Assembly (NCBI GenBank): GCA_029961075.1 | Contig: JASBVL010000012.1 | Location: 1-64,000, forward strand | Direction of reading: 5' to 3' | From: Sphaerobacter sp. | GTDB lineage: Bacteria; Chloroflexota; Chloroflexia; Thermomicrobiales; Thermomicrobiaceae | DNA length: 64,000 bases | Shown: positions 7,888 to 32,724 of the stretch, piece after piece | Position numbering within the stretch: the stretch's first letter is position 1 | How the letters are laid out: every line of letters starts with the position of its first letter | The notes under the pieces: generated by a model | The model's database searches: none | What the model saw: only the letters and a program-made list of their open reading frames with translations | What the model was told of the DNA's origin: nothing | Program-made: the position numbers and the translations under genes

Positions 7888-7941
7888 AAGAGCATCGGTG
7901 CTCTACAAGTCACACGTCTTGCGTAGAGAGGAGGCCGCGCG

Positions 7942-8880: not shown

Positions 8881-8939
8881 CGCGCGGTCCACAGCCACAC
8901 TGCGATTCCCGCTGATCTGACCGGACGGAGGGTACATCG

Positions 8940-10604
8940 ATGCAGACCGCCCATGCACACCGTCCTTCGGCGAACCGGAACCAGCCGGAATTCGATGCCG
9001 TCGTGGTTGGCGCCGGGTTCTCCGGGCTGTACATGCTCCACCGCCTGCGCCAGCTTGGCGTGACCACCCGCGTCTACGAGGCGGGCGGCGGGGTCGGCGG
9101 CACCTGGTACTGGAATCGCTATCCGGGGGCGCGCTGCGACTCCGAGAGCTGGGTCTACTGCTACTCCTTCTCGGACGAGATCCTGCAGGAGTGGACCTGG
9201 ACCGAGCGCTACCCATCCCAGCCGGAGATCGAGCGCTACCTGAACTACGTCGCGGATCGGCTCGACCTGCGCCGCGACATCCAGTTCAACACCCGGGTGA
9301 CCGCCGCCGCGTTCGACGAGGCGACGGGGCGGTGGCTGATCACCACCGACGCGGGGGAGCAGGTGTGGGCGACCTACTTCATCACGGCGGTGGGTTGCCT
9401 GTCGGCCGATAACCTGCCGGCGTTCAAAGGCCTCGAGACGTTCCAGGGCGAGTGGTACCACACCGGGCGCTGGCCGCAGGAGGGAATCGACTTCACCGGG
9501 AAGCGGGTCGGCCTCATCGGCACCGGAGCGACCGGGATCCAGGTCGCGCCGGTGGTCGCCGAGCAGGCCGAGCACCTGTGGGTCTTCCAGCGCACCCCGA
9601 ACTATGCCATCCCCGCCCACAACCGACCGTTGGATCCCGAGTTCATCCGGCAGCTCAAGGCCAGCTACGGCGAGGTCTGGGAGATCGTTCGGCGGTCCGC
9701 TGCGGGGCTTCCCATCGAGCCCGTCGAGCGGTCGGCGCTCGCGGTGAGCCCGGAAGAGCAGCGGCAGATCTACGAGGCTGCCTGGCAGAAAGGGGGCTTC
9801 TACTTCCTGTTCGAGACCTTCAACGACATCCTGGTCAACCCCGAGGCTAACGAGACCGCGGCTGCGTTCATCCGCTCCAAGATCCGCGAGACCGTCCGCG
9901 ATCCCGAGGTGGCCGAGCTGCTGTGCCCCTCGGACCATCCGTACGGGACGAAGCGGCCGCCGCTCGAGCACGGCTACTACGAGGCGTTCAACCGGGACAA
10001 TGTGACCCTGGTTGACGTCCGGAAGTCGCCAATCGAGGAGATCACCCCGACGGGGATCCGCACCACCGACGGCGAGTACCCGCTGGACATCATCATCTTC
10101 GCCACGGGGTTCGACGCCCTCACCGGCCCGCTGACGCGCATCGACATCCGCGGCCGTGGCGGGGTGGCACTGGCGGAGAAGTGGGTGTCGGGGCCGCGCA
10201 ACTACCTGGGCGTCGCCGTCCACGGCTTCCCGAACATGTTCACCATCACCGGGCCGCTCAGCCCCTCGGTGCTCACCAACATGCCGGCGGCCATCAGCCA
10301 GCACGTGGAGTGGATCGCGGACTGCATCGGGTACCTGCGGCAGCATGGCTACCGCGGGATCGAGGCGACGGCGGACGCCGAAGATCGGTGGGTGGCGCAC
10401 GCGAACGAGGCGGCCGAGCAGACGCTCTACCCGCGGGCGAAGTCCTGGTACATCGGGGCGAACGTCCCCGGGAAGCCCCGGGTGTTCATGGTCTACGTCG
10501 GCGGGCTCCAGAACTACCGTGCGCGCTGCCAGGAGATCGCCAGCAAGGGCTACGAGGGGTTCAGCCTGACGCCCGAGGCGGCACTGGCGGTTGGGGCTGG
10601 GTAG
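8940..10604 (+). CDS. Flavin-containing Baeyer-Villiger monooxygenase (cyclohexanone monooxygenase-like)
   Basis: A 554-residue FAD/NADPH enzyme. The FAD Rossmann motif GAGFSG is at residues 24-29, GGTWYWNRYPGARCD follows, the BVMO fingerprint FQGEWYHTGRWP is at 168-179, and the NADPH Rossmann motif GTGATG is at 194-199. These enzymes insert one oxygen beside a ketone to form an ester or lactone. The upstream gene encodes an esterase (now broken), so the pair would naturally oxidise a ketone and then hydrolyse the ester. Acetyl-CoA synthetase lies further downstream on the same strand, fitting use of released acetate; this is inference. Substrate cannot be told from sequence. The ATG follows GGACGGAGGGTAC, which contains a ribosome site. 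Confidence 0.9.
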   Translation: MQTAHAHRPSANRNQPEFDAVVVGAGFSGLYMLHRLRQLGVTTRVYEAGGGVGGTWYWNRYPGARCDSESWVYCYSFSDEILQEWTWTERYPSQPEIERYLNYVADRLDLRRDIQFNTRVTAAAFDEATGRWLITTDAGEQVWATYFITAVGCLSADNLPAFKGLETFQGEWYHTGRWPQEGIDFTGKRVGLIGTGATGIQVAPVVAEQAEHLWVFQRTPNYAIPAHNRPLDPEFIRQLKASYGEVWEIVRRSAAGLPIEPVERSALAVSPEEQRQIYEAAWQKGGFYFLFETFNDILVNPEANETAAAFIRSKIRETVRDPEVAELLCPSDHPYGTKRPPLEHGYYEAFNRDNVTLVDVRKSPIEEITPTGIRTTDGEYPLDIIIFATGFDALTGPLTRIDIRGRGGVALAEKWVSGPRNYLGVAVHGFPNMFTITGPLSPSVLTNMPAAISQHVEWIADCIGYLRQHGYRGIEATADAEDRWVAHANEAAEQTLYPRAKSWYIGANVPGKPRVFMVYVGGLQNYRARCQEIASKGYEGFSLTPEAALAVGAG

Positions 10605-11006
10605 GGCAGCGCGCGCCCCCTCCACGGGTGAGTAGGCACCAGCGGCGGCCGGCCGGGGGGCACGCCCGGTGCTCCCCCCCGGCCGGCGGGTCGTTGTGCT
10701 GCCCCGCCGCCTGTGGACGCCGCCAGCACGACGCGCCACGCAGAGATCCGCCCGCGATGTGCTGATCTCGCCGCGCCCCTCCGTCGCCCGGGCTGCGGCG
10801 ACGGCGCGGGGTCCTCCGCCGCCACGCACCCCATCCCGTCCGCCCGGGCGGGGTGCCTTTCCCCGTCACCGGCCATGGGCTAAGATACGGGGTGACGAGG
10901 TACCAGGCATTCTGCGCAGATGAGCTCGCCGCGAGCGGCGTGGGGGTGTGTTTCGGCCGAGGGCGCTGAGACGCCCCGCGGACCAGCCACACGGAAGGAG
11001 CGTGGC
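10605..11006 (+). other. Intergenic region with GC-rich hairpin and possible acs promoter
   Basis: Just after the monooxygenase, about 10647-10687 can form a long hairpin (GCCGGCCGGGGGG pairing with CCCCCCCGGCCGGC) that could end its transcript, although no clear T-run follows. Near the acs end, TAAGAT at 10881-10886 is a possible -10 box without a convincing -35. No gene is supported here. Confidence 0.35.
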
Positions 11007-12986
11007 ATGTCGAATGACCCGACAGGAACGATCACCGGTCTGCTGAAGGAGACGCGCAGATACGCGCCGCCAGCGGCGTTTGCCGCGCAGGCCAACATCA
11101 ATGACCCGGCGGTGTACGAGCGCGCCAAGCAGGACCCGGATGCGTTCTGGGCGTCTGCCGCGGAGCTCCTCGACTGGGATCGGCGCTGGGATAAGGTGCT
11201 GGAGTGGAACCCGCCCTGGGTCAAGTGGTTCGTCGGCGGCAAGCTCAACGCGTCCTACAACTGCGTCGATCGCCACACCAAGACCTGGCGCCGCACGAAG
11301 GCCGCGCTGATCTGGGAGGGCGAGCCCGGGGACGAGCGTGTGCTCACCTACCAGGACCTCTACCGCGAGGTGAATCGCGCCGCGCTCATGCTCAAGCAGT
11401 TGGGGGTGCAGAAGGGCGATCGGGTCTCGATCTACCTGCCGATGATCCCCGAGTTGCCGATCATCATGCTGGCCTGCGCCCGAATCGGCGCGCCCCACTC
11501 GGTGGTCTTCGGTGGCTTCAGCCCGTCGGCGCTCGCGGACCGCATCAACGACTGCGAGGCCAAGGTGCTCGTCACCGCCGACGGCGGCTATCGCCGCGGC
11601 AGCATCGTGCCGCTCAAGGACAACGCCGACAAGGCGCTGGAGATGGCGCCTTCGGTCGAGCGGGTCGTGGTGGTCGAGCGCGTCGGGCGCAGCGTCCACC
11701 CGGTCCGCATGCAGCCCGGCCGTGACATCTGGTGGCACGAGGCCCTGGACCAGGTCACCGGGTCCTACTGCCCGCCGGAGCCCCTCGACGCGGAGCATCC
11801 GCTATACATCCTCTACACCTCCGGGACGACCGGCAAGCCCAAGGGCGTGCTCCACACCACCGGGGGCTACCTGGTCGGCACGGCCCTCACCAGCAAGTGG
11901 GTTTTCGACCTCAAGGATGAAGACGTCTACTTCTGCACCGCCGACATCGGCTGGGTGACCGGGCACAGCTACATCGTCTATGGCCCGCTCGCCAACGGCG
12001 CCACCTCGGTGATGTACGAGGGCGCGCCCGACTGGCCGGACAAGGACCGCTTCTGGGACATCGTCGAGCGCCGCGCCGTGAACGTCTTCTACACCGCGCC
12101 CACCGCCATCCGCAGCTTCATGCGCTGGGGCCCGGAGTACCCGGCCAAGCACGATCTCTCCTCGCTGCGGCTGCTCGGCACGGTCGGCGAGCCGATCAAC
12201 CCGGAGGCGTGGATCTGGTACCAGCAGCACATCGGCGGCGGGCGCTGCCCGGTGGTCGACACCTGGTGGCAGACCGAGACGGGGATGATCCTGATCACCC
12301 CGCTGCCCGGCCTCACCACCATGACGCCGGGGTCGGCCACCCGCCCCTTCCCCGGCGTCGAGCCCGATATCCTCGACGAGCAGGGCAACTCGGTGCCGCC
12401 GGGGCAGGGCGGCTACCTGGTGATCAAGCGGCCGTGGCCGGCGATGTTCCGCACCCTCTGGGGCGATCCGGACCGCTACGTCCAGTCCTACTTCTCCAAG
12501 TACGGCCCGTCCGTCTACGTCACCGGCGATGGCGCCAAGCGCGATGAGAACGGCGACTTCTGGATCATGGGCCGCCTCGACGACGTCCTCAACGTCGCGG
12601 GCCACCGGCTCGGCACGATGGAGCTGGAGAGCGCCCTGGTCAGCCACCCCGCCGTGGCCGAAGCCGCGGTCATCGGCGTGAGCCACGAGGTGAAGGGGCA
12701 GGCCATCGCTGCCTTCGTCACGCCGCGCGCCGGGGTGGAGCCGACCCAGGAGCTGGCGGAGGAGCTGCGCCAGCACGTCGCGGAGACCATCGGCCCCATC
12801 GCGCGCCCCGACCGGATCTACTTCACCGCCGAGCTGCCCAAGACGCGGAGCGCGAAGATCATGCGCCGGCTGCTGCGCGACATCGCCGAGGGGCGGGTGA
12901 TCGGCGACACGACCACCTTGACCGACCCGTCGGTGCTGGAGGAGATCAAGCAGCGCTACAGCAGCCACGAGGCCGGGGGCGAATAG
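11007..12986 (+). CDS. acsA: Acetyl-CoA synthetase (AMP-forming)
   Basis: A 659-residue ANL-superfamily enzyme that activates acetate to acetyl-AMP and then acetyl-CoA. Visible motifs are [19 protein letters not shown] (ATP/AMP P-loop), [24 protein letters not shown], and the C-terminal lysine region [14 protein letters not shown], whose Lys is the usual acetylation-controlled catalytic residue. Length is normal for Acs. ATG at 11007 was chosen because GGAAGGAG lies just upstream; a longer ORF from 10920 adds a non-homologous leader. A strong intrinsic terminator follows at 13008. Acetate from ester cleavage upstream could feed it, which is a contextual inference. Confidence 0.95.
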
Positions 12987-13007
12987 CCCACCGATCGTCG
13001 AGCAGCG

Positions 13008-13046
13008 CCGGGGCGCCGCCATCCTGCGGCGCCCCGGTTTGCTTCT
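13008..13046 (+). terminator. Rho-independent terminator of acsA
   Basis: A 12-bp perfect stem (CCGGGGCGCCGC at 13008-13019 with its complement at 13026-13037), a six-base loop, then TTTGCTTCT. It also separates acsA from the convergent defence-like operon. Confidence 0.85.
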
Positions 13047-13089
13047 CCCGCGCGCGGATTGCCGGTGGGGGCACCCTCCCGGCCGCCGC

Positions 13090-16000
13090 TCAGACACCCG
13101 ACGCGCGGGCCGCGGCCTGGCTCGGAACCGAGCTCGCTTCGGTGTTGGGCGGCGCGAGCAGCTCGGCCGCTCGCGATGAACCGGGCTGGGCCTCGACGTT
13201 CGCCGGGGTGGTGTGCTGCGTGAGGGCGTGCAACGGCCTGACGATCTGCTTGGCCTCCTCCTCGAGCTGTTTGAGGCGCCGCGTGAGCGACTCAGGCGAG
13301 GCCCCCTCGATCTCCCGGTAGTACGGGTCCGTTGGCGAGAGCGACAGTCCCGCGACGCTCACCAGCCTCAGCAGCGGCGCAAAGGGGAACCCGCAATGGC
13401 GCAGGTTGCGGATCGTCTCCTCGGACAACGCCCATGGCGCGTTGTCTCCGACCGGGTCGGACGCGCGCTGGCGCACGATCTCGACGAGCGCTGCCCGCAG
13501 CAGGACCTGCCGCGCCCGCTCCTCGAGCGATAGGCGCTCGGCTTCCCGCCGCTGCCGGGCGATCGCGCTGTCGCGCTCCTGGAGCGCGTCGAGGTGCTGG
13601 CGGAAGTCCGCCTCGGCCGCCGCCCGCGCAGCAGTCGACCAGCTCAGATCGCCGCCGTCGAGTGCCCGCTCGAGATCGACGATCCGGTCAATGCGCCGTG
13701 CCTGGTTCCCCACGGGCTGGTAATACGCCCGCAGGGGCACGGGGTCATCTTCGGCGCAGCGGAGCAGACCTGCCGCGCTGTCCGACCGTGCCGGCGGCTC
13801 GATCTGGGCGAGGAGCTCGTTCAGCAGCCGGTCGCCGTAGCTCACCAGGCGCACCGTATCCGGGTGGGCGTCGAACACCGCGCGGTCGAAGGTCACGGCC
13901 ACCTGCCCGTCGCCATGGGCGAGCAGCAAGGCGTGAGGGATGGTCGGGTGCGGCCTGAAGCGCTCGCGGAGGCTCGGCGAGTGGGTCAGCACGCGCTCCA
14001 GGTCGGCCAGCTCCACCGGTGTCCCCTGGGCGGTCGTTCCCTGCTCGTCCGCGGGGTGCGTGTCGAGACTCACCAGCTCCACCTGCTGCTGATCGATCGC
14101 GGCCCTGAGCCTGGCCATCTCCTCCTCAAGCCGGCGCTCTCGCTCGGCGCGCGGCAGCATCGCCAGCGTCTCGATCGACCGTGCCACCCCCGTCAGGATC
14201 GGCTGCAGCTCGCCGACGACGTCGGTAAACCACGCGATCCGGTCGCTCAGGCGCTCGTAGACCCGCGCCTCGATCGTGTCCTCGTAGAAGAAGTTGCGCA
14301 CCCATACGTCCGGATACCGCTGGCCGATGCGGTCGACGCGCCCGATGCGCTGCTCGACTCGCATCGGGTTCCAGGGCATGTCGTAGTTGATCAGCACGCC
14401 GCAGGTCTGGAGGTTGAGGCCCTCGCTGGCTGCCTCGGTGCAGAGGAGAATCTTGATCCGCTCGCCCTGGCGGAAGGCGTTCTTGATCTCCTCCTTGGTC
14501 GTCGGCGTCCATGCGCCGTCGCGCCACTCTTCGCCGCCACGGCCGGAGTAGCAGGCGATCTGGTGGCCGTAGACCTCGCGCAGCCGCTCGCGCAGGTAGT
14601 CCATCGTGTCGGTGTATTGGGTGAAGATGACGACCGTCTCCCGCCTGCGGAAGATCTCGCCGAGCATCGCCATCAGGCGCTCGAGCTTGGAGTCGCCGCT
14701 GAGGCGCCGGATGTCATGCAGGAAGTCCTCGACGTAGCGGATCTCCTCCCGGTAACCCCGGGCCAGCGCCTGCGCCAGCTCCTCGGAGATGTCCTGCTCA
14801 AGCTCGTCCACTTCCAGGTCATCGTCCGTCAGGCCGGGGTCGGGCGCCTGCCCCCGCAGGAACTCCAGGCGTCGCTGCAGGCTGCGCTCGATGGCGGCGA
14901 AGCTGGAGGTGAGGCGGCGGCGGTAGACCGTCATGATGAAGCCGAGGCCGCGCCGCTCCTGCTCGTAGCGGGCGTAGAATTCCGCGATGTACTCCTCGAT
15001 CCGGTCGTAGAGGTCGCGCTCCGCCGGCGTCATCTCGATCCAGACCGGCTGCGGATCGCGCTTGGGGATGGTGGCCCGAATAAGCCCGCGGCGGGCGTAC
15101 TCGCGCAGCAGCTCTCGGGTGTTGCGGAACATCAGCCGCCGGAGCGGCGTGTGCCGCCGGGCATACTCCTGCGCGACCGCCTGGGCTTCGACCGGGAGTC
15201 GCGCGATAGCCGCTCGGCGGCCGGCTGACCGGACCAGCGCGCGAACCCGATCCCAGTTCACCGGGCCGACCCGCGACATGGCCATCTCGGCCAGCCCCGG
15301 ATCCTCGGTGCCGCCGCTCTCCAGCTCGTCCCGCACCATGTCGAAGACGAAGTCCCAGTCGACCTCCTCGACGGGCTTGCGCAGCTCGCGGAAGAAGCGC
15401 AGGAAGTGCTGCTCATCCACGCCCCAGCGCCCGCCGAGTCCCAGGAGCATCAGAAGATCCCAGACCTCGACCGGGTGCACCTGCATCGGCGTGGCCGTCA
15501 GGAGCAGCATCCCCTGCGTTCGCTTGCGCAACTCGCGCAGCAGCTCCAGGAGGCGGTTCGGCCGGTCGCGCTGGGCGAGGAAGTCCCGCCGGCGAGCATG
15601 GTGCGCCTCGTCCACCACGACCAGGTCCCAGGGGAGGGCAGCGAGGACCTCCCGCTGGCGCTCACGCCGCTTGACGAGCTGGCTCGAGGCGAGCAGGACC
15701 GGCTCGCTGTCGAACGGGTTCGGCGTGGACGGCTCGCGCTCGTCGCCAAAGACGGTGATAAAGCGGCCCCCGTCGTAGCGCGGGATGTCGAGGAGGAACT
15801 TCTCATACAGCTCCTCCTGCCATTGGCGTATGACGCTGCGCGGCGTAAGGATCAGGCAGCGGCGCACGCGGCCGGAGAGGAGGAGTTGCCGGATTGCCAA
15901 CCCCGCCTCGATCGTCTTGCCCAACCCGACCTCGTCGGCGAGCAGGAACCGCTCTGGAAAGCGGGCGACGATGGCGTCGCTCACGCGCAACTGGTGCGGC

Positions 16001-16884
16001 CACGGCTCGATGGCTGCGGTGGCGGCGCCGAGGCGTCCGGCACCCGGCAGGTGGGGGGCGTCGCGGAGGAACTGGGCGAGGATCCGCGCCCGCTGGTCGT
16101 CATCCCTCGGCTGCTCGACGACGTAGATCGCCCGCTCGTCCGCGACCCCCGCGGGCACGGCCGTCTCCAGCGGGTCACGCGTCGGCGGGTACTCCGGTCG
16201 AAAGGCGATGAGGCGTTCGCGGACGGCCTCGGGGATCGGCAGCGCGATCCAGTCCCGCTCCGTGCCTTCCCAGAGTCGCTCGAAGCGCCGGACCACGCCG
16301 GCGAGGTATCGCTGGGAGTCGTCCCAGGACGTGAAGACCAACAACTGCTCGTAGTTGTGCTGCCAGCCGGTCGCCGACTCGTTGACGCTGCCGCTGAAGG
16401 CGACCTGGTTCCCGGCCGCGTCGGTGAAGACCCCCTCTTTGGTGTGGAAGTAGGGGGCGGCCCGGTCACCGGGCACAGGCAGCCCGTCCGGCCCGACCGG
16501 GAGAACGACCCGGATCTCCAGCGTTCCCTCGGCTACCATCCAGGCGAGCGCCTCAAGGCGACTGCGCAAGAGGAGGTCCTCCGGGTCCGCGAGCAGCGTG
16601 AGGAACTTCTCGCGGATTCGCTCCGCGAGGTGGTACCCCCGCTCGATCGCCGCGACATCCTCGTCGTCGAGCGAGGCGCCGACGAGGAGCCGCATCCGGC
16701 CGCCGTTCTGGATCAGGTGGGCGATGCCGGCTGCCGCGACCGCCAGCGCCGAGCTGGAGAAGAACCCCGTGGCCCGGTCGTAGCGCACGCTCCGCGCGAG
16801 CGCCGGGATGTAGAAGTCGTGGAGCCGGTCGTCGGCCGGGCCGTAGAAGAACTGGAACGCGTAGTCGCGGAGCAGGCTCGGCAC
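13090..16884 (-). CDS. PLD-family nuclease fused to SNF2/DEAH helicase; last gene of the defence-like operon
   Basis: A 1264-residue fusion. Residues about 1-210 are a phospholipase D-like nuclease module of the helicase-associated kind, with HTKEGVFTD (HxK at 147-149) and FSGSVNESATGW (164-174). A SNF2-type motor follows: ADEVGLGKT (316-324), VVVDEAHHARR (DEAH at 425-428), LLTATP (461-466), and in the second lobe EAASEGLNLQTCGVLINYD and EQRIGRVDRIGQ near 845. The C-terminal 400 residues are Arg/Glu-rich and resemble the tail of SNF2 helicases of phage-defence loci. It starts only three bases after the DUF1156 methylase stop, so they are one transcript. Expected role: translocation on DNA and cleavage of non-self DNA. 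In DISARM the PLD and SNF2 proteins are separate; here they are one chain. Confidence 0.88.
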   Translation of the reverse strand: MPSLLRDYAFQFFYGPADDRLHDFYIPALARSVRYDRATGFFSSSALAVAAAGIAHLIQNGGRMRLLVGASLDDEDVAAIERGYHLAERIREKFLTLLADPEDLLLRSRLEALAWMVAEGTLEIRVVLPVGPDGLPVPGDRAAPYFHTKEGVFTDAAGNQVAFSGSVNESATGWQHNYEQLLVFTSWDDSQRYLAGVVRRFERLWEGTERDWIALPIPEAVRERLIAFRPEYPPTRDPLETAVPAGVADERAIYVVEQPRDDDQRARILAQFLRDAPHLPGAGRLGAATAAIEPWPHQLRVSDAIVARFPERFLLADEVGLGKTIEAGLAIRQLLLSGRVRRCLILTPRSVIRQWQEELYEKFLLDIPRYDGGRFITVFGDEREPSTPNPFDSEPVLLASSQLVKRRERQREVLAALPWDLVVVDEAHHARRRDFLAQRDRPNRLLELLRELRKRTQGMLLLTATPMQVHPVEVWDLLMLLGLGGRWGVDEQHFLRFFRELRKPVEEVDWDFVFDMVRDELESGGTEDPGLAEMAMSRVGPVNWDRVRALVRSAGRRAAIARLPVEAQAVAQEYARRHTPLRRLMFRNTRELLREYARRGLIRATIPKRDPQPVWIEMTPAERDLYDRIEEYIAEFYARYEQERRGLGFIMTVYRRRLTSSFAAIERSLQRRLEFLRGQAPDPGLTDDDLEVDELEQDISEELAQALARGYREEIRYVEDFLHDIRRLSGDSKLERLMAMLGEIFRRRETVVIFTQYTDTMDYLRERLREVYGHQIACYSGRGGEEWRDGAWTPTTKEEIKNAFRQGERIKILLCTEAASEGLNLQTCGVLINYDMPWNPMRVEQRIGRVDRIGQRYPDVWVRNFFYEDTIEARVYERLSDRIAWFTDVVGELQPILTGVARSIETLAMLPRAERERRLEEEMARLRAAIDQQQVELVSLDTHPADEQGTTAQGTPVELADLERVLTHSPSLRERFRPHPTIPHALLLAHGDGQVAVTFDRAVFDAHPDTVRLVSYGDRLLNELLAQIEPPARSDSAAGLLRCAEDDPVPLRAYYQPVGNQARRIDRIVDLERALDGGDLSWSTAARAAAEADFRQHLDALQERDSAIARQRREAERLSLEERARQVLLRAALVEIVRQRASDPVGDNAPWALSEETIRNLRHCGFPFAPLLRLVSVAGLSLSPTDPYYREIEGASPESLTRRLKQLEEEAKQIVRPLHALTQHTTPANVEAQPGSSRAAELLAPPNTEASSVPSQAAARASGV

Positions 16885-16887
16885 AGA

Positions 16888-19830
16888 CTACTCCTCGTCC
16901 TCCTCGGCCTCGTCGAGGAAGCCCATCTGCCGCGCCACCTCGGGCGGAACCTCCTCGGCCGGAACCTCCAGGTCGTCGAAGAAAGCAAGTCGCAGCCGCT
17001 CCAGCGTCTCTGCCTCCGGCCGGGCGAAGGCTCCCTTGACCTTCGTCCGGGGGATGGCGTTGATGAGCGCCTGGAGGCAGGCCCGGAAGCGGCCGTCGCG
17101 GAGCAGGGTGGCGTCCTTCAGGAACTGCTGGCAGGCGCGCGGGCCGTCCTCCTCGTAGACGAGCATAGCCGTGTGCGCGGCGTCGATCAGGCTGGGGAAG
17201 TCCGTCGCCTCCGGGTCGACCACGCCGGTGCGCCGCCGCTCGCTCGGTGTCAGCAGCACCACCGAGCTCGCTGTCTTGGCGACGAGCCGCTCGCGGCGCA
17301 CGATGTCCTGCTCCAGGTCGAGCCCCAGCGCCAGCGCCAGCTTGCGGGCCTCGTCGGCCGCGAACTCGGCGGCCTTGAACGCGTCCCAGGCCATCAGATA
17401 CCAGTCGGTGGCCGGGTCGAACTGCACCGGGCGGCCGAGGAGCAGCCCCTCCTTGCGCAGGTTGATGACCTCCTCGCGGGCGAGGTCGAGCGCGACCTCC
17501 GGCCGCAGCGGCTTGGGCTGGCCGGTCTTCGGATCGACCTCGCTGGTCAGCACCGGCCAGCGCTCGGAGATGACGGAGAGGGCAGGGCCGAAGGCGCTGA
17601 TGTAGAGATCTACGCCGCTGATGCCCATCCTGGCGAACTCGGCCGCCCGCTCGCGCGCCACCCGGCGCACCCGGCCTTTGATGTCCTCCCACCAGACCGG
17701 CTCACTCGACGCCTCCTGCTTGCGACAGACGAGGAGGATCGTGCTCGCTGCTGCATTCTTCTTCGCCTGGTGCAGGCTATGCTCGCTCTCAGTGTGTACC
17801 GGCCAGGACGCCTCGATGCGGAACCCGGCAGTGATGAGAGCCGTGGCGAGGGTGTCCCAGGCTTCGACCTGCTTGTGGGTGAACATCACCGTCAGGACGC
17901 CGTCGGGGCGCAGGACGCGGTGGCACTCCCGGAAGATGGCAGCGATCTTCCGCTCGTAGTCCTGGCGCGCGAGGTCGCGGCGCCGGGAGCCGAAGTCGGC
18001 GAAGCGGGCCGGGTTGGCGACCGCCTCGTTGTCCTTGTCGGTCAGCTCGGCGCGGAACCAGTCCGGGTGGAGATCGCCGACGGTGCGCTTGAGCCAGACG
18101 TAGAAGAAGTCAGACAGCTCGCTGTACTGGACGTTGTCGTAGTACGGCGGGTCGATGCAGACAAGATGGACGGAGCCGGTGGCGACGGTGCTCAGGTCGG
18201 AAGCATCACCATGCGTGATGTGCAGCCGCTCGACTGGGGACTCGCCGTCCTGGCCCCAGAGCGGCAGGCGGGCAGGCTGGGCGAGCTTCGCGATCCCCTT
18301 GTAGGCATCCACAACTTGCTCAACGGCCCAGTCGAGGCCCTTGCCGGCCGCTACGACCGCCATCTCCCCGTGGCTCCACTTGAAGCTGAAGCCGTGCCGG
18401 TCGAAGGTGTTCTTGATGGCACCGCGAGTTACGTCTAGGCGGCTCATTCGGGAGTTGTAGTCGACCAGCTTGTCGACCACGATAGCCAGGTAGGTCCGGA
18501 CCGCCCGAGCCTGGTCTGCCGGCAGCTCGCGTTCGATCTCGGACGCCAGCTCGCGGAGCGTCTCGACGACGGTGCCGAGCGCCAGGAGCTGGCGCGGCGA
18601 GAAGAGATCCCGCCAGCGGGTCATGCCGTACTGCCGTGGCCGCTGATCGTTGCTGACAGGTGGCACCTCCTCATCCGGGACGATCCCATCGGCGAGCCAA
18701 CCGGGCAGCTTTCGGGCCAGCTCCTCTTCCGCTGCCGCTATCGCCGCGCGGTCCGCCGCACTCGGCGAGCGGAACTCCGTGCCGCGCTCGGTCTTGACCC
18801 CGACGACGTAGAGCTGCTGGCCCATCCGCCCGGCCTGCGCCTCGCGCTTGATGTAGTCGCCGTCGATGACGTCGCCGGTCCAGGGCGAGACGGCGACGCC
18901 GCGGCGGATGGTGCCCTGGTCAGGCTTGGCGCGCTCGACTTCCTTCCCTCGCACGACCTCGAAGCGGCACTCCGGCCAGTCCGGCTGGCAGACAAGCTTG
19001 ACTGCAACCGGATCGGACCCCTTCTGGAGCCACCAGTTGGGCGAGAGCGGCACCGGCTTGCCGGTCACCGGGCAGGCGACCGTCCGCGCCCAGAGGTAAA
19101 AGAGCGGGGGATGCGATCCATTTTCCCCAGCAAAGTACCGCCCGAGACGGTCACGCACACGACGGCTGAGTTCCGTGCCCCACCGCTGAATCGTCGCGGC
19201 GAATTCAGGGCCGAACCGTGCGGGGTAGTCCAGCGTCGCTGCGAGGATTACTGACGCGACTGGATTGAGTTCGTTGGCGTACGTCGTGAGCCCGAAACGC
19301 AGCGACTCCAGGGGGATCGATCCGCCGCCCGCGGTCGGGTCGACGACTGAAGGACCACCGGCTCCCCAGCAGTAGTGCATGAAGGCCTGGAGTATGGAGA
19401 GGTCTTCCTCAGAAGGGTTGACGGTGAACGCGCGAGGATAGGAGTACGCGTTGGGCACGAACGTGCCGGCCTGCCTTGCCCAGGTCAACAGCTTCCGGGC
19501 AGCGACCGGGTCGCCCTTGATGCCAAGGAGGCGTGTGAACCAGGCGTGGTAACGCTCCTCGGTCGGGAAGCGCTCCAGCAGCTCGGCTGGCCACTCCGCG
19601 CTCCAGGCCGGGAGGAGGCTCGCGAGGATCGCAGCCCGGCTGACGGTCAGCGGGCGGCGCGCCCACCAGATGTGGAGAAGAAACGGGGCTGGAAAGGGAG
19701 TACCGTATCCGCGCTCGCGCTGGCTTTCGATCCCGATCTCCGCGATCGGCAGCCAGCGCTCAATCAGCAGCTCCCCGGTCGTCGCCCTATGGGCCGGCTC
19801 GGTTGTCCCGGCCTCGGTGACCCCGTCCAC
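16888..19830 (-). CDS. DUF1156 DNA methylase (N6-adenine/N4-cytosine type) of the defence-like operon
   Basis: A 980-residue protein. The N-terminal DUF1156 domain (LIERWLPIAEIGIESQRER, HIWWARRPLTVSRAAILASL) is followed by the SAM-binding motif DPTAGGGSIPLESLRFG at 164-180. A mid-region has WARTVACPVTG and CQPDWPEC, a degenerate zinc-ribbon-like area. The catalytic motif IV DPPYYDN is at 560-566, the D-P-P-Y form used by exocyclic-amine DNA methyltransferases. Motif order (I before IV, widely separated) fits COG1743, annotated as adenine-specific methylase. It sits between the zinc-ribbon gene (96-base gap) and the PLD-SNF2 gene (3-base gap). Likely role: marking host DNA as self. Target sequence cannot be read from the protein. 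Confidence 0.88.
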   Translation of the reverse strand: MDGVTEAGTTEPAHRATTGELLIERWLPIAEIGIESQRERGYGTPFPAPFLLHIWWARRPLTVSRAAILASLLPAWSAEWPAELLERFPTEERYHAWFTRLLGIKGDPVAARKLLTWARQAGTFVPNAYSYPRAFTVNPSEEDLSILQAFMHYCWGAGGPSVVDPTAGGGSIPLESLRFGLTTYANELNPVASVILAATLDYPARFGPEFAATIQRWGTELSRRVRDRLGRYFAGENGSHPPLFYLWARTVACPVTGKPVPLSPNWWLQKGSDPVAVKLVCQPDWPECRFEVVRGKEVERAKPDQGTIRRGVAVSPWTGDVIDGDYIKREAQAGRMGQQLYVVGVKTERGTEFRSPSAADRAAIAAAEEELARKLPGWLADGIVPDEEVPPVSNDQRPRQYGMTRWRDLFSPRQLLALGTVVETLRELASEIERELPADQARAVRTYLAIVVDKLVDYNSRMSRLDVTRGAIKNTFDRHGFSFKWSHGEMAVVAAGKGLDWAVEQVVDAYKGIAKLAQPARLPLWGQDGESPVERLHITHGDASDLSTVATGSVHLVCIDPPYYDNVQYSELSDFFYVWLKRTVGDLHPDWFRAELTDKDNEAVANPARFADFGSRRRDLARQDYERKIAAIFRECHRVLRPDGVLTVMFTHKQVEAWDTLATALITAGFRIEASWPVHTESEHSLHQAKKNAAASTILLVCRKQEASSEPVWWEDIKGRVRRVARERAAEFARMGISGVDLYISAFGPALSVISERWPVLTSEVDPKTGQPKPLRPEVALDLAREEVINLRKEGLLLGRPVQFDPATDWYLMAWDAFKAAEFAADEARKLALALGLDLEQDIVRRERLVAKTASSVVLLTPSERRRTGVVDPEATDFPSLIDAAHTAMLVYEEDGPRACQQFLKDATLLRDGRFRACLQALINAIPRTKVKGAFARPEAETLERLRLAFFDDLEVPAEEVPPEVARQMGFLDEAEEDEE

Positions 19831-19926
19831 GATTACTCCTCCCCCATCGTCGTCGGCTGCTCAACGCCCTGAGCATCCGACAGGTGCCTGGGACGGCATT
19901 CCAGTGCCGGGACCTCGGCGTGAGAC

Positions 19927-20382
19927 TCAGTGGCTCCCGGTGCCCTCCGGTCCCTCAGTGCCAGGTCTGGAATCCCGCTTCCGCTTTGCGCTGCCATGGC
20001 CCCGATGCTGGCTGAGCGGTTCGTCACAGAGTCGGATTACGTTGCCGCTCTGGTCTTCTATCCGCTCGTAGTACCGATCGTTCTTCCGATCGATGATGCG
20101 GTGAATGCGGTTCCAGACCCCAGTCTTTCGGAAGAGCGAATCACCTGACCGGATCTCACGGAACGGCTTCCCCCGGCCTCCCTCTTTCGCCTTCATACGA
20201 ATAAACTCTCGCGTTTCGAGGGCCGCCTTCAGTGTGGCTTTTATGCGGCGGTTTCTTGACCCGCACTCGGGACAAGCGTCATCCTCCGCTTTCAGCGTAG
20301 CACCACAGTCTGCACAACGTATGACGGGCGAAACATTATGGTGGCGATCGGCTGCGTCCCCCTGCCCACCGTTCACAGTCAC
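19927..20382 (-). CDS. Small zinc-ribbon protein inserted in the defence-like operon
   Basis: A 151-residue basic protein. The N-terminus has a treble-cysteine ribbon, CADCGATLKAEDDACPECG, followed by a conserved body (WNRIHRIIDRKNDRYYERI, then VIRLCDEPLSQHRGHGSAK). I recognise that last block as recurring in small uncharacterised bacterial proteins but know no function. It starts with GTG at 20382 after GAGGTG. Base composition is distinct: hand counts give 55-62% G+C in four 60-base lines against 70% in a neighbouring gene line, so it may be a separate acquisition. It lies 66 bases after the small helical gene and 96 bases before the methylase. It may be a system component or a passenger. 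Confidence 0.7.
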   Translation of the reverse strand: MTVNGGQGDAADRHHNVSPVIRCADCGATLKAEDDACPECGSRNRRIKATLKAALETREFIRMKAKEGGRGKPFREIRSGDSLFRKTGVWNRIHRIIDRKNDRYYERIEDQSGNVIRLCDEPLSQHRGHGSAKRKRDSRPGTEGPEGTGSH

Positions 20383-20448
20383 ACCCTCACACCTCAGCCA
20401 CTGCGAAACAGGAAGCCCAGTGTCATCGCACCGTGCTCGACGAGATCC

Positions 20449-20895
20449 TCAGTCGCGCGCCAGCAGCACCCGTAGGGCGCGCTGGGCCTGGCGCCCGTTA
20501 CCGCTCGCGACACACTTGCTGAACCAGTAGTAGGCCTCCTCCGCCGGCATGTCACGGATCCCCGCGGCGATCGCCTCCATGCGCACCACTTTCGTCAGCG
20601 GCCGCAGGGCGAGGAACAGGAGACCGAGGCGGACGCCGGTCTCCTCGCTTACCGGCAGCGCTTCTGCCTGGCCTGGACGGAGTGCGGTTGGCCGGTGCCC
20701 CTCACGCCGGAGCGCGTCGAGGATCTGGTCGAACGCGACCTGGAGCGGCGTACCGCGCAGCGTGGCGAGGTGGCGCATCTCCGCGCGGCTGCTGCCGTTG
20801 CTCGTGAGTCGCTGCTGGCAGAGCGCAAGTCGGTAGCGGTCGCCTTGCTCGGGCAGCACACGGAGCTCGAAGGCGAGCGGCTGCCGGTTGCTCAC
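20449..20895 (-). CDS. Small helical protein of unknown function coupled to the DUF499 ATPase
   Basis: A 148-residue protein, FELRVLPEQGDRYRLALCQQ at the start and mostly helical later (ALPVSEETGVRLGLLFLALR; ADMP-like turn; YYWFSKCVASG near the end). I do not recognise catalytic residues. Its ATG overlaps the stop of the DUF499 gene by four bases (ATGA), so stoichiometric co-translation with the ATPase is likely. It therefore looks like an ATPase partner or adaptor rather than a stand-alone enzyme. Similar small genes accompany DUF499 genes in comparable loci, from memory. Confidence 0.7.
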   Translation of the reverse strand: MSNRQPLAFELRVLPEQGDRYRLALCQQRLTSNGSSRAEMRHLATLRGTPLQVAFDQILDALRREGHRPTALRPGQAEALPVSEETGVRLGLLFLALRPLTKVVRMEAIAAGIRDMPAEEAYYWFSKCVASGNGRQAQRALRVLLARD

Positions 20896-23800
20896 GGGAG
20901 CACCTCCGTGTCTTCCGTCACCGGCTCCGCCTTAACGGTGAGCCGGCCGAAGCCGAGTTGGTCGAAGATGTCGCGCATCTGGCCGAACTGGTCACTATCG
21001 ACCGCCAGCCCGTCGGGGAAGGTCGCCTGGAGGGTCGTCCTGATGGTGAGCTTGGCGGCTTCCTTACCGAACTCGTCGGTGACGGTTCGTAGGCGCTTGT
21101 AGCGATCCCAACTACCGTTGAAGGTCAGGTGGAAGTACTCGCCCTGGCCGAACTCAATCGTCAGTACCTGCTCCACGCGGAACTGTCCCTTGCCGAGCTG
21201 TGGGACGGCCAGACCAAGCGCGCGTACCTCGGCGGCGCCCACCGGCCCGTCTCCTTCGAGGTGTATGGTCAGGCTACGGATCGCGTCGATCTTCTTATCG
21301 AGGCACGTGTCCGAGATCGCCTGGAAGACCTGAGCCGGCGCGCCCTCGGCCTTGAGCGGTAGCGTCACCACTGGCGGTGGCGGTGGCGGTGGCCAGTTCG
21401 CCGGGCTGATCACGTCTCCGCAGATGCACTGGTCGGTCGGCTGGCCGCAGACGGGGCATCGCTCAACGACTGGCTCGACCTCCTCACCCCGGATCGCGAT
21501 GTGCCGCCGTCGCGCCTCTTCTGGCGTGAAGAGGGCCACGTCGTCACTGAGCTGGACGGATGGTGGCGGTGACACCTGGCCGTAGCCCCGGTTCTCGTGC
21601 GGATCGAAGTAGACCCAGAGGCCCTGCTGGATGCCGTCCCTGATGGCTCGCTTGAGCTGGTTGACGTCGAGCAGCATGGGCAGGCTGAGCCGCTTCGCGA
21701 ACGCCCGTCGCAGATCCTCGGTGGTCATCTGGTCCTGGCCGACATCCCACGCCTTGGCCTTGACGTACTGGGCCGCCATCGGGGGATCGTCTGCGGTCCG
21801 CACCTTGTCGATCTGCTTGAGAACCCGCAGCACGACGGTGGATTGGTCCGACCGCACCTCGCCCTGATCCTGGGCGGGCAGGACCTCACGCGCGAGGTTT
21901 GCGGCGTCGCGTGGTGCATCGCCGCTCGGATAGTAGAGGTAGCGGTAGGCCCGGGTGATCGCGACCCGGAGCTCCAGCTCGGCGCTGTCCCGCAGTTGGC
22001 GCAGCTTCCGGCGCTGCTCCTCGGTGAAAGCCTGGAGGCGATCGGTGTCTTCGATGATCCGGCCGATCGCGAGGTAGCGACGCGCCTGCTCGACGAGGTC
22101 GCTGACCTGGTCCCGGTCGGCGACGAGGAAGATGAGGTTGTTCTTGTAGACGCGATAGCCCTCGCGGGAGCCGGCGTACTCGAAGATCCGGCGGACGAAG
22201 TCCGGCGGGGCGGGGTCGCTCGCGGTGGCCGCCGCCGCGTCGTAGTGGATCACGACGAGCTTCGGCTCCCGTGCGTCGTCGTCGACCTCGCTCGCCTCGC
22301 TGGGGAAGTAGACCGGCTGGAACACGCCTCTCCGCCAGACCTGTCGGATGCGCTCGTCGAGGAGCGCCTTGGCCCGGGTTGTCCCGACGACGGACATTTC
22401 GTCGGCCACGACCTTGTTGATCGACGGCTCGGTCTTGAACTGGTAGCGGTGGCCGTTGTAGTCGAGGAACCAGCAGGCATCGACCAGGCGCTCGGTGGCC
22501 CGATCGATCAGCGTGGGGTCGTCACCCGGCTGGACGACGGCGAGGCGAAGGTCGGCCGGATCCACGCCGGAGGCGATGCCTTGGGTCAGGCTGTGGAGGA
22601 AGATCGTCGTCGCGACGCGCTGGGCGTACGGCGGCTTCCCGGCCGCGACCCAGGCGGTGTCGATCGTCTGGGCGTGCGAGCGGGTGCCAGGAAGCGAGCT
22701 GGCGATGTCGGCCTCGATGACCTGCTTGAAGGCCGGGCGGTCGAGCCGGCTGGTGAGGTCGTCGGCGATCTGCGGCACGGCGAGATCGAGATGGTGGGGG
22801 TGGATCAGGTAGGTGTCGGCCGGTCGGGTCTCCCAGAGCCGTCGGATGGTCATGGCGAGGAGCCGAAGAGCGCCGCGCGTCTTCTGGAAGTTGGGGATGG
22901 TCGACGTCTTCCGGTTCAGCGTATTCAGCAGCTCCGGGTGGAAGGGGTAGGCGGCTCGCATCTCCCCCGCGTAGTCCGCCCGGCCGGCGCGCTGGGGGAG
23001 ATCGGCCTGCTGCTCGAGCAGTTGCGCGTAGTACTGGTGGTAGGCGACGGTCACCGCCTCCGCAGCGTCGCCCCGAATGCTGCGGAAGAGGCGGTGGGTG
23101 ACGATCTTCGCGATCTCGGTCTCGCCGGTCGGAGTGATGACTCGCTCCTGGCGCGCGCTGACGCGGCGGGCCTCGGCCAGCTCCTCGCGCAGCGCCTCTC
23201 GCAGCTCGTCGGTCTCGGCCCCGAAGGCGTCGCTCGAGTCGGCCAGGGTGAGCACGACGACCACCCGCTCCCGGCTGGCGGCGAACTCGAGGAGCGACAT
23301 AAGGAAGGCGACGGTCTGCTCGGCCAGGTCGCTCCTGCCGGTGCCGGTCGGGACCGCCTTGGCGGAGCGGAGATGGCGAGCGACCTCGTCGAGCATGATC
23401 AGCGCAGGCTGGTCTCCGACGATCTGCTGCCAGACCCCGGTGCCGGGCGCGGCCTTCGTGTTCCGGTCACTCTCGGCGACGAGCTGGTACGCGGCCAGAC
23501 CGCCGAGCTGGTAGGCCAGCTCGCCCCAGAGGGTGTAGGTGGTCACGTCTCGGTGCAGGAGGCCGCTCGACGGGTCAAGGTCCGAGCCGACGACGCCAGC
23601 GATGCGGATCTCCCCCGGGGCCGGAATAAGGCTGCGGTCGACGCTCGTCCGGGCGGCGTCGCTGCCGCGGGCCGCATGGTAGAGCGCGATCAGGTTGTGC
23701 GTCTTCCCGCCACCGAAGGAGGTCTCGAGCCGGATGATCGGATTGCTGCTCGAGCGTTGGCCGGTCAGCCGCCCGAGCGCCTCTTCGAGGAGCGCCTTCA

Positions 23801-23966
23801 AGCCGTCGGTGGGGTACGTGTTCTCGAAGAACGTTTGCGGGTCCTGATAGACGGCCTCCGCGCTCCCATCGATGACGTCCTTGAGGCGCGCGGCGAAGAC
23901 CTCCTCTTTCAGCTCGCCGTGCAGCACCTCGGAGCGTGGCTCACACGCATCGAAGATCGTTTGCAT
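20892..23966 (-). CDS. DUF499-family large P-loop ATPase, first gene of the defence-like operon
   Basis: A 1024-residue AAA+-like ATPase of COG1483 type. The DUF499 Walker A form ETSFGGGKTHNLIALYH lies at about 81-97; Walker B is in PALIMLDEVARHLR. A central region has REGYRVYKNNLIFLVAD. The C-terminal part has a zinc-binding CPVCGQPTDQCICG followed by a Pro-rich linker, then a domain with SIRSLTIHLEGDGPVG-like strands. DUF499 proteins are uncharacterised but cluster with DNA methylases and helicases in predicted defence loci. ATG at 23966 was chosen because the family begins MxTxxDACxPR; ATG at 23996 would add ten residues. No convincing promoter was found upstream. It probably acts as the energy-dependent sensor or organiser. 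Confidence 0.85.
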   Translation of the reverse strand: MQTIFDACEPRSEVLHGELKEEVFAARLKDVIDGSAEAVYQDPQTFFENTYPTDGLKALLEEALGRLTGQRSSSNPIIRLETSFGGGKTHNLIALYHAARGSDAARTSVDRSLIPAPGEIRIAGVVGSDLDPSSGLLHRDVTTYTLWGELAYQLGGLAAYQLVAESDRNTKAAPGTGVWQQIVGDQPALIMLDEVARHLRSAKAVPTGTGRSDLAEQTVAFLMSLLEFAASRERVVVVLTLADSSDAFGAETDELREALREELAEARRVSARQERVITPTGETEIAKIVTHRLFRSIRGDAAEAVTVAYHQYYAQLLEQQADLPQRAGRADYAGEMRAAYPFHPELLNTLNRKTSTIPNFQKTRGALRLLAMTIRRLWETRPADTYLIHPHHLDLAVPQIADDLTSRLDRPAFKQVIEADIASSLPGTRSHAQTIDTAWVAAGKPPYAQRVATTIFLHSLTQGIASGVDPADLRLAVVQPGDDPTLIDRATERLVDACWFLDYNGHRYQFKTEPSINKVVADEMSVVGTTRAKALLDERIRQVWRRGVFQPVYFPSEASEVDDDAREPKLVVIHYDAAAATASDPAPPDFVRRIFEYAGSREGYRVYKNNLIFLVADRDQVSDLVEQARRYLAIGRIIEDTDRLQAFTEEQRRKLRQLRDSAELELRVAITRAYRYLYYPSGDAPRDAANLAREVLPAQDQGEVRSDQSTVVLRVLKQIDKVRTADDPPMAAQYVKAKAWDVGQDQMTTEDLRRAFAKRLSLPMLLDVNQLKRAIRDGIQQGLWVYFDPHENRGYGQVSPPPSVQLSDDVALFTPEEARRRHIAIRGEEVEPVVERCPVCGQPTDQCICGDVISPANWPPPPPPPVVTLPLKAEGAPAQVFQAISDTCLDKKIDAIRSLTIHLEGDGPVGAAEVRALGLAVPQLGKGQFRVEQVLTIEFGQGEYFHLTFNGSWDRYKRLRTVTDEFGKEAAKLTIRTTLQATFPDGLAVDSDQFGQMRDIFDQLGFGRLTVKAEPVTEDTEVLP

Positions 23967-24491
23967 CGGTCCGATTCCATGTCCTGCCCGCGCCATACGC
24001 GCCCGATAGCTCGTCGGGTCTCAATCAGGTCAAACGGGCGACGCGGGCTCTCGGTCGCAACTCGGGCGACCGCCCGTTGCCGCTCCCATCCCTGGCCGAG
24101 TGCGCGTCGTCACCCGTGAGCCACCGGCGGCGTGGGAGAGGGGCTTGCTCGTCAATGTCCATCAACCTTGTGCCTTGACCCGATGATGGTACCGCAGCGG
24201 TGCTTCTCGCGTACAGAGCCCGATCGTCCCAGGTTGCGACGCTGGCCAGGACGGGCGCACGCGGACATGGCGACGAGCACGCTCGTGCCGATCTGCCTAT
24301 CCGGCATTACACACGAAATAGGAGAGTGGATTCAAGTCCCCGGCGCGGATCCATGACGCGGTTGCGAGCGGCTGGGGTGCGTGGAGGTCAGCCACGCTTG
24401 GCGCCCGGATGGAGCGCTGGGGCGTGGGACGACGTCGCCCCGGCGGGTATTCGCCGGGGCGACTTTGCCCGCGCTGTTGCGGGCCATGGGG
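23967..24491. other. Leader and spacer between the defence-like operon and the tRNA cluster
   Basis: No gene is supported in these 525 bases. A 12-bp perfect hairpin (GTCGCCCCGGCG at 24434-24445 with its complement at 24452-24463) is followed on the plus strand by TTTGCC; on the minus strand it lies 30-60 bases beyond tRNA-Phe and could act as a transcript end for the tRNA trio, though without a T-run in that direction. No tRNA 3'-end duplication was seen at the far end of the operon. Confidence 0.4.
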
Positions 24492-24564
24492 TGCCGAGGG
24501 CCGGGATCGAACCGGCGACACCGGCATTTTCAGTGCCGTGCTCTACCGACTGAGCTACCTCGGC
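24492..24564 (-). tRNA. tRNA-Phe (GAA)
   Basis: Cloverleaf of 73 bases: acceptor GCCGAGG pairs with CCTCGGC, D-arm GCTC/GAGC, anticodon stem CGGCA/TGCCG around loop CTGAAAA (anticodon GAA), T-arm GCCGG-TTCGATC-CCGGC, discriminator A. The CCA end is not encoded. Last of three tRNAs on one transcript. Confidence 0.97.
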
Positions 24565-24597
24565 GTCTCGTTGTCGCCGGGTCATCCCGCGCAGTAG

Positions 24598-24670
24598 TGG
24601 GCGATAGAGGGCTCGAACCTCTGACATCCACGGTGTAAACGTGGCGCTCTACCAACTGAGCTAATCGCCC
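24598..24670 (-). tRNA. tRNA-Val (TAC)
   Basis: 73 bases: acceptor GGGCGAT/ATCGCCC, D-arm GCTC/GAGC, anticodon stem CCACG/CGTGG with loop TTTACAC (anticodon TAC), T-arm AGAGG-TTCGAGC-CCTCT, discriminator A. No encoded CCA. Confidence 0.97.
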
Positions 24671-24687
24671 CCACGTCGCGGTGTTGG

Positions 24688-24772
24688 TGCCGAGGAAGGG
24701 ATTTGAACCCCCACGCCCTTAACGGGCACTAGCCCCTCAAGCTAGCGCGTCTGCCTATTCCGCCACCTCGGC
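24688..24772 (-). tRNA. tRNA-Leu (GAG)
   Basis: 85 bases with a long variable arm typical of leucine tRNA: acceptor GCCGAGG/CCTCGGC, anticodon stem CTAGC/GCTAG with loop TTGAGGG (anticodon GAG), variable arm TGCCCGTTAAGGGCGT, T-arm GGGGG-TTCAAAT-CCCTT (one mismatch pair). First tRNA after the promoter at 24800-24829. Confidence 0.97.
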
Positions 24773-32390: not shown

Positions 32391-32418
32391 GCGGGCCACG
32401 GCGCACCCCCCACGTGCG

Positions 32419-32460: not shown

Positions 32461-32517
32461 GTGGTGCGGATCGGGTACGGGGAAGGGAAGGGGGGTGTCG
32501 TGGGCTGCGCTCGGGGG

Positions 32518-32706: not shown

Positions 32707-32724
32707 GCTCGTGCCTCCTCAGCC

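Follow-up and report, generated by a model that had tools for sequence, protein, structure and literature searches.

A DUF7680-containing cassette in a Sphaerobacter genome: a probable mobile sister lineage of type-2 BREX-Related systems

Gene organization and the conserved core

We analyzed a stretch of 64,000 nucleotides from Sphaerobacter sp. (contig JASBVL010000012.1, positions 1 to 64,000; hereafter the window) that carries an operon encoding a DUF499 ATPase, a small DUF7680 protein, a DUF1156 methylase and a fusion of a PLD(HKD) nuclease with an SNF2 helicase. A first-pass annotation had described a five-gene minus-strand operon with tight junctions, and the open reading frame (ORF) ends and the sequence bear this out: five minus-strand ORFs are present in the order given there, a GTGA overlap at 20892-20895 places the DUF7680 start on the DUF499 stop, and a gap of 3 bases (16885-16887) separates the methylase ORF from the helicase ORF. 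The features are as follows (lengths in amino acids, aa; model confidence as predicted local distance difference test, pLDDT).

20892..23966, minus strand: DUF499 AAA+ ATPase, 1024 aa (Pfam PF04465, 150.6 bits; PADLOC HmaC, 384.5 bits)
23700-23714, minus strand: Walker A motif GGGKT of DUF499 (Walker A and DE conserved in relatives)
20449..20895, minus strand: DUF7680 protein, 148 aa, proposed DUF3780-fold partner (PF24728, 139 bits; model pLDDT 93)
19831..20448, no strand: variable slot 1, DUF7680 to methylase (slot lengths in 48 sequences, window included)
19927..20382, minus strand: putative zinc-ribbon cargo gene (CxxC...CxxC), 151 aa (sub-threshold zinc-ribbon Pfam matches)
16888..19830, minus strand: DUF1156 methylase, probably an amino-methylase, 980 aa (DUF1156, 62.1 bits; HmaB, 280.6 bits)
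19318-19341, minus strand: methylase motif I, DPTAGGGS (conserved in relatives)
18142-18153, minus strand: methylase DPPY motif (conserved in relatives)
13090..16884, minus strand: PLD(HKD) nuclease-SNF2 helicase fusion, 1264 aa (SNF2 and Helicase_C by Pfam; PLDc_2 sub-threshold; PLD_Helicase, 270.3 bits)
about 16195-16884, minus strand: N-terminal PLD part of the helicase (PLDc_2 sub-threshold)
about 14215-16032, minus strand: SNF2 core of the helicase (SNF2, Helicase_C)

The DUF499 ORF spans 20892-23996 and encodes 1034 aa from its first ATG; the start taken in the first-pass annotation, the ATG at 23966, gives 1024 aa and is supported, since tblastn alignments begin at residue 1 of this form in most relatives with a complete DUF499 gene. 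DUF499 is described as BrxC/ORC-Cdc6-like in the literature. Beside the DUF1156 match, the methylase gives an N6_N4_Mtase match below the Pfam threshold, and its DPPY motif fits an amino-methylase; a 2026 Nucleic Acids Research survey (PMC12839542, cited here and below from its main text) calls this enzyme N6-adenine, and it is called m5C in the excerpted text of PMC8565338, which names the Hma (helicase-methylase-ATPase; PADLOC 2021) system. The helicase has a single HKD pair (H147 and K149; G165, S166 and N168) that is kept in most relatives. As judged by a motif table of ORFs of at least 600 aa (without L108, L076, L067 and L072), the GGGKT Walker A, DE, DPPY, DEAH and HxK/GSxN motifs are largely conserved among relatives. 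Minus-strand ORFs at 11802-13097, 10866-11798, 8766-10829 and 7903-9216 were considered as further operon genes and rejected: neither Pfam nor PADLOC matches them, and an acetyl-CoA synthetase is encoded on the plus strand at 10920-12986.

A scan of one genome per species, based on a DUF7680 alignment, identified 56 DUF7680 loci, mostly in Chloroflexota; by title, other DUF7680 records belong to Gemmatimonadetes, Planctomycetota, Deltaproteobacteria, Firmicutes/Bacillota, Acidimicrobiales, Coriobacteriia, Bryobacterales, Leptothoe, Halovenus and other archaea. DUF499 lies directly upstream on the same strand in 50 of the 56 loci (48 of the 51 with a long enough contig; the misses are L073, L078 and L080), a methylase lies downstream of DUF7680 in 42 (26 of 29; misses L041, L078 and L079), and a helicase follows the methylase in 29 (23 of 26; misses L055, L067 and L073). 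With DUF499 in this position in 50 of the 56 loci, the arrangement is beyond chance. DUF7680 is found in 10 of 101 close-kin genomes, counting that of the window; among 301 Chloroflexota genomes, DUF7680 occurs in 12, DUF499 in 65 and DUF3780 in 9 (7 above cut-off), and in all 12 DUF7680-bearing genomes DUF7680 is near a DUF499. The conserved core consists of the DUF499 ATPase, DUF7680, the DUF1156 methylase and the PLD(HKD)-SNF2 helicase.

Two unusual arrangements were also observed. The archaeal loci L078, L079 and L080 (two organisms by title) have two DUF7680 copies on opposite strands and an order unlike that in bacteria; the copies adjoin the DUF499 gene in L078 and lie some kilobases from it in L079. 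In L041, a short DUF499 stretch and DUF7680 lie on a 19-kb stretch with no methylase or helicase, perhaps as a cassette remnant.

Variable slots and mobility of the cassette

The fifth gene of the window, encoding the zinc ribbon, was found by tblastn in only 4 of the 56 loci (in one over 25 residues only) and was therefore rejected as a fifth core subunit; of the five genes first annotated as one unit, it is the other four that recur together across DUF7680 loci. Relatives of the zinc-ribbon gene occupy the same slot in L034 and L081, with weaker or partial ones in L018, L029 and L044, and its zinc-ribbon Pfam matches are all below cut-off. The gene went uncalled by a rough gene caller based on codon usage in the core, and so may be foreign. 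It is cargo, a local instance of uptake into slot 1.

Slot 1, between DUF7680 and the methylase, is at most 350 bp in 20 of 48 sequences, 351-999 bp in 5 and at least 1000 bp in 23, the largest being 6898 bp. Slot 2, between methylase and helicase, is at most 350 bp in 23 of 34 sequences (a count without L072), 351-999 bp in 4 and at least 1 kb in 7. Of 21 copies of slot 1 that measure at least 1 kb and have a DUF499 gene for comparison, 18 are lower in G+C than that gene, perhaps partly owing to non-coding DNA in the slots. Slot ORFs were picked by length; 78 were scanned with Pfam, the families named here from that scan being among the first 25 of 64, and PADLOC was run on about 20. The cargo is rich in genes of defence type and includes GmrSD, OLD/TOPRIM (GajA-like), BrxD with BrxHI (Shango/SngB/SngC-like), AAA_21, UvrD/GajB-like, SIR2-like, Schlafen-AlbA_2, HipA_C, CHAT, Mrr_N, Uma2 and antitoxins; the slots of plasmid pAQ6 carry toxin-antitoxin genes. 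Many slot ORFs match nothing and some are plainly unrelated, such as one with a ribosomal S17 match, so the gene calls in the slots are rough. Both slots serve as acceptors of accessory genes, among which defence genes are frequent; that BREX and BREX-Related (BR) loci in general carry accessory effectors has already been described (PMC12839542, main text).

In L020 and L044, an insert in slot 1 combines one or two BrxD-like ATPases and a BrxHI/SngC-like helicase with a protein of 305-308 aa that neither Pfam nor PADLOC matches. A six-member family of slot-1 ORFs occurs in Thermomicrobia records (L034 4633-5553, L081 10750-11634, L029, L031, L044 and L076); its L034 member is very rich in arginine and proline and may come from GC-rich DNA read in the wrong frame.

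The cassette itself has moved, and the segment that contains it is bordered as follows.

12987..24489, no strand: inserted segment (empty sites in two sister genomes)
24490..24772, minus strand: tRNA-Phe, tRNA-Val and tRNA-Leu, right border of the insertion (sister-genome similarity resumes here)

Two congeneric genomes have 583 and 595 bases between the acetyl-CoA synthetase gene and the tRNA-Phe cluster on either side of the cassette, and similarity to the window stops just past the synthetase stop and returns at the tRNA. One of these empty-site genomes, G002, has its copy of the system, with a DUF499 of 82% identity, on another contig. From the empty sites and the G002 copy, it follows that the cassette moved within the genus. 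No att pair is readable at the borders among the direct repeats found, and the insertion is shown by the empty sites instead. Integration at the tRNA-Phe 3' end was rejected, as the 24-base tRNA end does not recur in the window, even with 3 mismatches allowed.

DUF7680 is matched on 24 of 72,556 plasmid records, and both pAQ6 of Picosynechococcus sp. PCC 7002 and Rhodococcus pNSL1 have DUF499, DUF1156 and helicase genes next to it, in a compact arrangement on pNSL1. Among IMG/VR contigs, DUF7680 is found on two (L190 and L191) and DUF3780 on 30; systems of both kinds may be carried by viruses, or these contigs may be plasmid or host DNA misclassified as viral.

Relation to DUF3780 loci and described systems

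Three DUF499-centred BR types are defined in the survey, and its main text describes type 2 as having an HKD-SNF2 helicase, with an N-terminal HKD (PLD) nuclease in place of TUDOR, and a stand-alone DUF3780 gene in 98% of 1120 taxa (PMC12839542). The window has the type-2 core features, a DUF499 ATPase, DUF1156 methylase and SNF2 helicase together and an N-terminal HKD; DUF3780 has no match in the window's genome, and DUF7680 stands in that position. The likeness to type 2 extends to the four-gene set and its order, the HKD-SNF2 fusion, the position of a small alpha+beta protein between the ATPase and methylase genes, the presence of accessory effectors at the locus, and ASCH fusions of the partner (for DUF3780 according to the main text of the survey). 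The locus could be simply a type-2 BR (or Hma) system, in which DUF7680 would be a fast-evolving DUF3780 beyond the reach of family models and nothing would be distinct. The shared gene order, helicase fusion, predicted fold order and register, and ASCH fusions favor this explanation, and the separation of the two kinds of loci, set out below, makes it unlikely in our judgment, though still the strongest competitor.

First, the two partners occupy different loci. Among 112 sequences annotated with home-made profiles (L108 repeats L027), none has both DUF7680 and DUF3780. DUF3780 was found in 1 of 18 DUF7680 genomes queried, outside the fetched stretch; G010 has one DUF7680 and one DUF3780 at separate places. 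The order ATPase-partner-methylase-helicase is common to both kinds of loci. The remaining DUF499 loci, treated as a single group across types 1 and 3, have the order helicase-methylase-ATPase in all 27 cases with all three genes, and in L147 and L155 of this group, which have no helicase match, DUF499 precedes the methylase. Of 37 DUF7680 sequences with a helicase match, 35 have one that begins within the N-terminal PLD region of the profile, at positions 1-5 in 34 and at 47 in L078; L067, where the match is probably to another gene, and the fragment L072 are the exceptions. Such a start is seen in 4 of 4 DUF3780 loci and in 0 of 27 other loci, and the end of the stretch truncates five of these 27. 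Likewise, HxK and GSxN are conserved in DUF7680 and DUF3780 loci and were not found in other DUF499 loci.

Second, the core proteins fall on separate branches in all three core trees. These were quick trees, without bootstraps and with few DUF3780 rows, from which L108, L076 and proteins under 650 aa (DUF499), 600 aa (methylase) or 500 residues (helicase) were left out; branch support is given as the Shimodaira-Hasegawa-like approximate likelihood ratio test (SH-aLRT). Of the 95 rows of the DUF499 tree, the 40 other and the 5 DUF3780 rows each form one side of a branch (SH-aLRT 98 and 100); 49 of the 50 DUF7680 rows form a group with support 98, the exception being L114, which is unplaced and raises the changes needed for this group from one to two. 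The methylase tree groups 41 DUF7680 rows at 99, 4 DUF3780 rows at 100 and 33 others at 77. In the SNF2-core tree, 26 others group at 99 and 4 DUF3780 rows at 100, and the 30 DUF7680 rows need two changes, which we think is due to L067, where the best helicase match is a minus-strand gene before the operon. In best segments, the window DUF499 is 29-82% identical to DUF7680-type proteins and 24-29% to DUF3780-type proteins. The unplaced L114 (G236, contig 123) has a weak DUF7680 match (74 bits) and a DUF499 between the DUF7680 and DUF3780 clades; it may be an intermediate or represent a third type of partner. Based on these observations, we propose that DUF7680 loci are very probably a distinct lineage.

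The two partners themselves appear to be related in structure. The first-pass annotation had called the DUF7680 protein a small helical partner; a small partner it is, but the AlphaFold2 model (148 aa, pLDDT 93) predicts an alpha+beta protein of four strands and five helices. The model of DUF3780 from a viral-contig locus (175 aa, pLDDT 88) has the same element order, E-E-E-H-E-H-H-H-H, with similar lengths, and DUF3780 has been published as four antiparallel strands and five helices (PMC12839542, main text), a description that DUF7680 fits in number and order of strands and helices. With match columns taken from the first sequence, a sequence-only alignment of the families spans 132 pairs (P 0.035); the predicted secondary structures agree at 86% on the sequence-only alignment (85% in a global variant), against a mean of 37% and a largest value of 49% in shifted controls. 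We consider the two families likely to be homologous, common descent being likely and not proven. Foldseek searches with DUF7680 against the PDB and BFVD returned nothing at E 0.001 or better. The entry 8eov was rejected as the DUF7680 fold, being too weak at a VIA-align 2 Z of 6.0 at most, over the C-terminal helices (it also leads for DUF3780, at Z 4.5), and a ribosomal protein at E 0.05, the only PDB sequence match to DUF7680 at E 1 or better, was taken as chance.

In 17 of the 56 loci, DUF7680 carries an N-terminal extension, each time of the same family, that is ASCH by Pfam in 5 of 5 scanned; ASCH and RAMA fusions have been reported for DUF3780 (PMC12839542, main text). The ASCH-like domain is a possible reader of modified bases, and its fusions suggest a role for DUF7680 in reading modified DNA.

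Database models place the locus close to, and outside, what they define. In PADLOC-DB, the window proteins score 384.5/212.3 bits against HmaC/DUF499, 280.6/157.4 against HmaB/DUF1156_MTase and 270.3/239.4 against PLD_Helicase/HmaA. Four 'anti-phage' equivalogs exist in NCBIfam (NF042961-NF042964, for DUF3780, DUF499, DUF1156 and PLD); the window proteins reach 290 bits for DUF499 (cut-off 1200), 223 for DUF1156 (1000) and 414 for PLD (1100), and DUF7680 has no match among NCBIfam models. The DUF3780-type locus L100, from the same phylum, exceeds the cut-offs in both proteins scanned, DUF499 (1511 vs 1200) and DUF3780 (244 vs 200). By sequence, neither DUF499 nor the methylase has a PDB match at E 0.01, and the helicase matches only RapA and other SNF2 proteins. 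The locus almost certainly belongs to the DUF499-centred kind, and the first-pass label of an unstudied type was too strong, as PADLOC-DB, NCBIfam and the main text of PMC12839542 already cover this kind. A match to a characterized system in every part is nevertheless not what we find, because the NCBIfam cut-offs are missed by a wide margin and DUF7680 is without an NCBIfam model. The difference from type 2 lies in the partner, DUF7680 rather than DUF3780, in three core proteins on separate branches and in scores far below the NCBIfam cut-offs; the locus is a distinct lineage inside an already predicted kind, and not the described type 2.

The remaining described systems are less similar. Hma or type-1 BR systems share DUF499, a DUF1156-type methylase and an SNF2 helicase, but have, in the loci analyzed here, the order helicase-methylase-DUF499 and a helicase without the HKD part; all three Hma models match the window (239, 281 and 385 bits), but PLD_Helicase outscores HmaA and a fourth core gene is present. 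A Pfam scan showed no C-terminal restriction endonuclease domain on the window helicase. Type-3 BR and type-3 BREX share DUF499/BrxC, a methylase and an SNF2 helicase, but both use PglZ (PMC12839542, main text), which has no match in the window's genome (91% complete). The excerpted text of PMC7641849 describes COG1743-DUF499-SWI2/SNF2 nuclease operons beside EVE proteins, including a PLDc form in archaea; these resemble the window in the three core families, the PLDc variant and a nearby PUA-like reader, but have a separate EVE reader rather than an ASCH fusion, and DUF7680 goes unmentioned in that excerpt. DUF7680 is also not named in the main text of PMC12839542, and a literature search, covering a library of open-licence PubMed Central papers, found it named in none, DUF3780 in 1, and DUF499 together with DUF1156 in 1.

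The window's genome has a second DUF499 system, type-1-like, on contig 88 (L017, 36000-49501), with a NOV_C-bearing helicase, a methylase and HEPN_Swt1-DUF499; a BrxL_ATPase gene lies at 31971-32906, about 5 kb before its helicase.

Proposed function and alternative explanations

We favor the reading, as reasonably probable, that the locus is a mobile restriction-modification-like anti-phage cassette and a sister lineage of type-2 BR, with DUF7680 in place of DUF3780. A restriction-like set of methylase, ATPase and helicase-nuclease had been proposed from the start, and the gene content and tight packing support it; restriction-like defence as the main function is, for this branch, quite likely. 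We infer the biochemical steps, the target motif and the defence role from gene content, gene order, motifs, co-inheritance and empty sites. The DUF1156 methylase would mark a motif in host DNA, and the DUF499 ATPase, an ORC/Cdc6-like loader, would sit on DNA with DUF7680, which would either help to read the mark or couple ATPase and methylase. Unmarked DNA would lead to recruitment of the SNF2 motor of the helicase, and the single-HKD PLD domain, presumably as a dimer, would cut it. The detailed order of these steps might equally well be different.

A second explanation is that the cassette serves maintenance or addiction, stabilizing a plasmid or island rather than defending against phage. 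The 24 plasmid records with DUF7680, the toxin-antitoxin genes in the pAQ6 slots and the insertion of the window copy between housekeeping genes are consistent with this, and it is established that restriction-modification cassettes can serve as addiction modules (also stated in PMC7641849, excerpted text). The slot cargo, rich in defence-type genes, and the reported anti-phage activity of a related type-1 helicase (PMC12839542, main text) argue against it, and we consider it improbable as the main role; defence and addiction can coexist.

The absence of hallmark BREX and DISARM proteins from the locus, as first annotated, holds for PglZ, BrxL and DrmB. No BrxL_ATPase or MZB match lies near the operon, the only ones being on contig 88 and contig 50, respectively; MZB (DUF1998) is taken here to mark DrmB. 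The window helicase cross-matches a DrmA model at 158 bits, well below its 270 bits for PLD_Helicase, and no other DrmA match was found among 10 ORFs scanned. A DISARM- or BREX-type system that lost parts, an idea to which the helicase scores against DrmD and BrxH models and the argued kinship of BR systems with BREX (PMC12839542, main text) lend some color, is very improbable given the absence of a PglZ match in the genome, the position of BrxL_ATPase and MZB on other contigs and a helicase score of 279 bits against a DrmD cut-off of 610.

Several observations weigh against the sister-lineage reading and its parts. (i) The Asgard loci L078-L080 break the core order, L073 has no upstream DUF499, and L041 lacks a methylase and has DUF499 as a fragment only. 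(ii) The DUF499 of L114 cannot be placed confidently in either clade, the quick trees of DUF499 and helicase carry warnings of long branches meeting, and the window DUF499 is 32% identical to that of its own genome's type-1-like L017, closer than to DUF3780-type proteins (24-29%). (iii) By sequence alone, the profile alignment of DUF7680 and DUF3780 (89 columns, P 0.03) is weak: equally high scores arise in 6 of 100 column-permuted controls, and the reversed control reaches 16.3 vs 18.8. (iv) The ASCH-like extension is on none of the 8 DUF3780 ORFs of this set. (v) The survey's type 2 may silently include DUF7680 loci, and the literature search found no phage test of a DUF7680 system.

Taken together, the results allow a broader proposal, which we regard as evenly poised: DUF7680 systems would be a fourth, unnamed DUF499-centred defence lineage of bacteria, archaea and plasmids, with a long-diverged relative of DUF3780 as partner. 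DUF3780 and DUF7680, at times fused to possible modified-base readers, would then be the sensing or licensing subunit that sets the HKD-type systems apart, and the cassette a docking platform that exchanges defence modules at fixed slots. In this proposal, DUF7680, a Pfam family of unknown function, gains a place, a testable role and a link to DUF3780, and the HKD-type BR systems split into two comparable lineages. The slots offer a place to look for further defence genes, and the plasmid copies in laboratory organisms, on pAQ6 and, in compact form, on pNSL1, make the methylation target and the trigger for cutting directly testable for the whole family.

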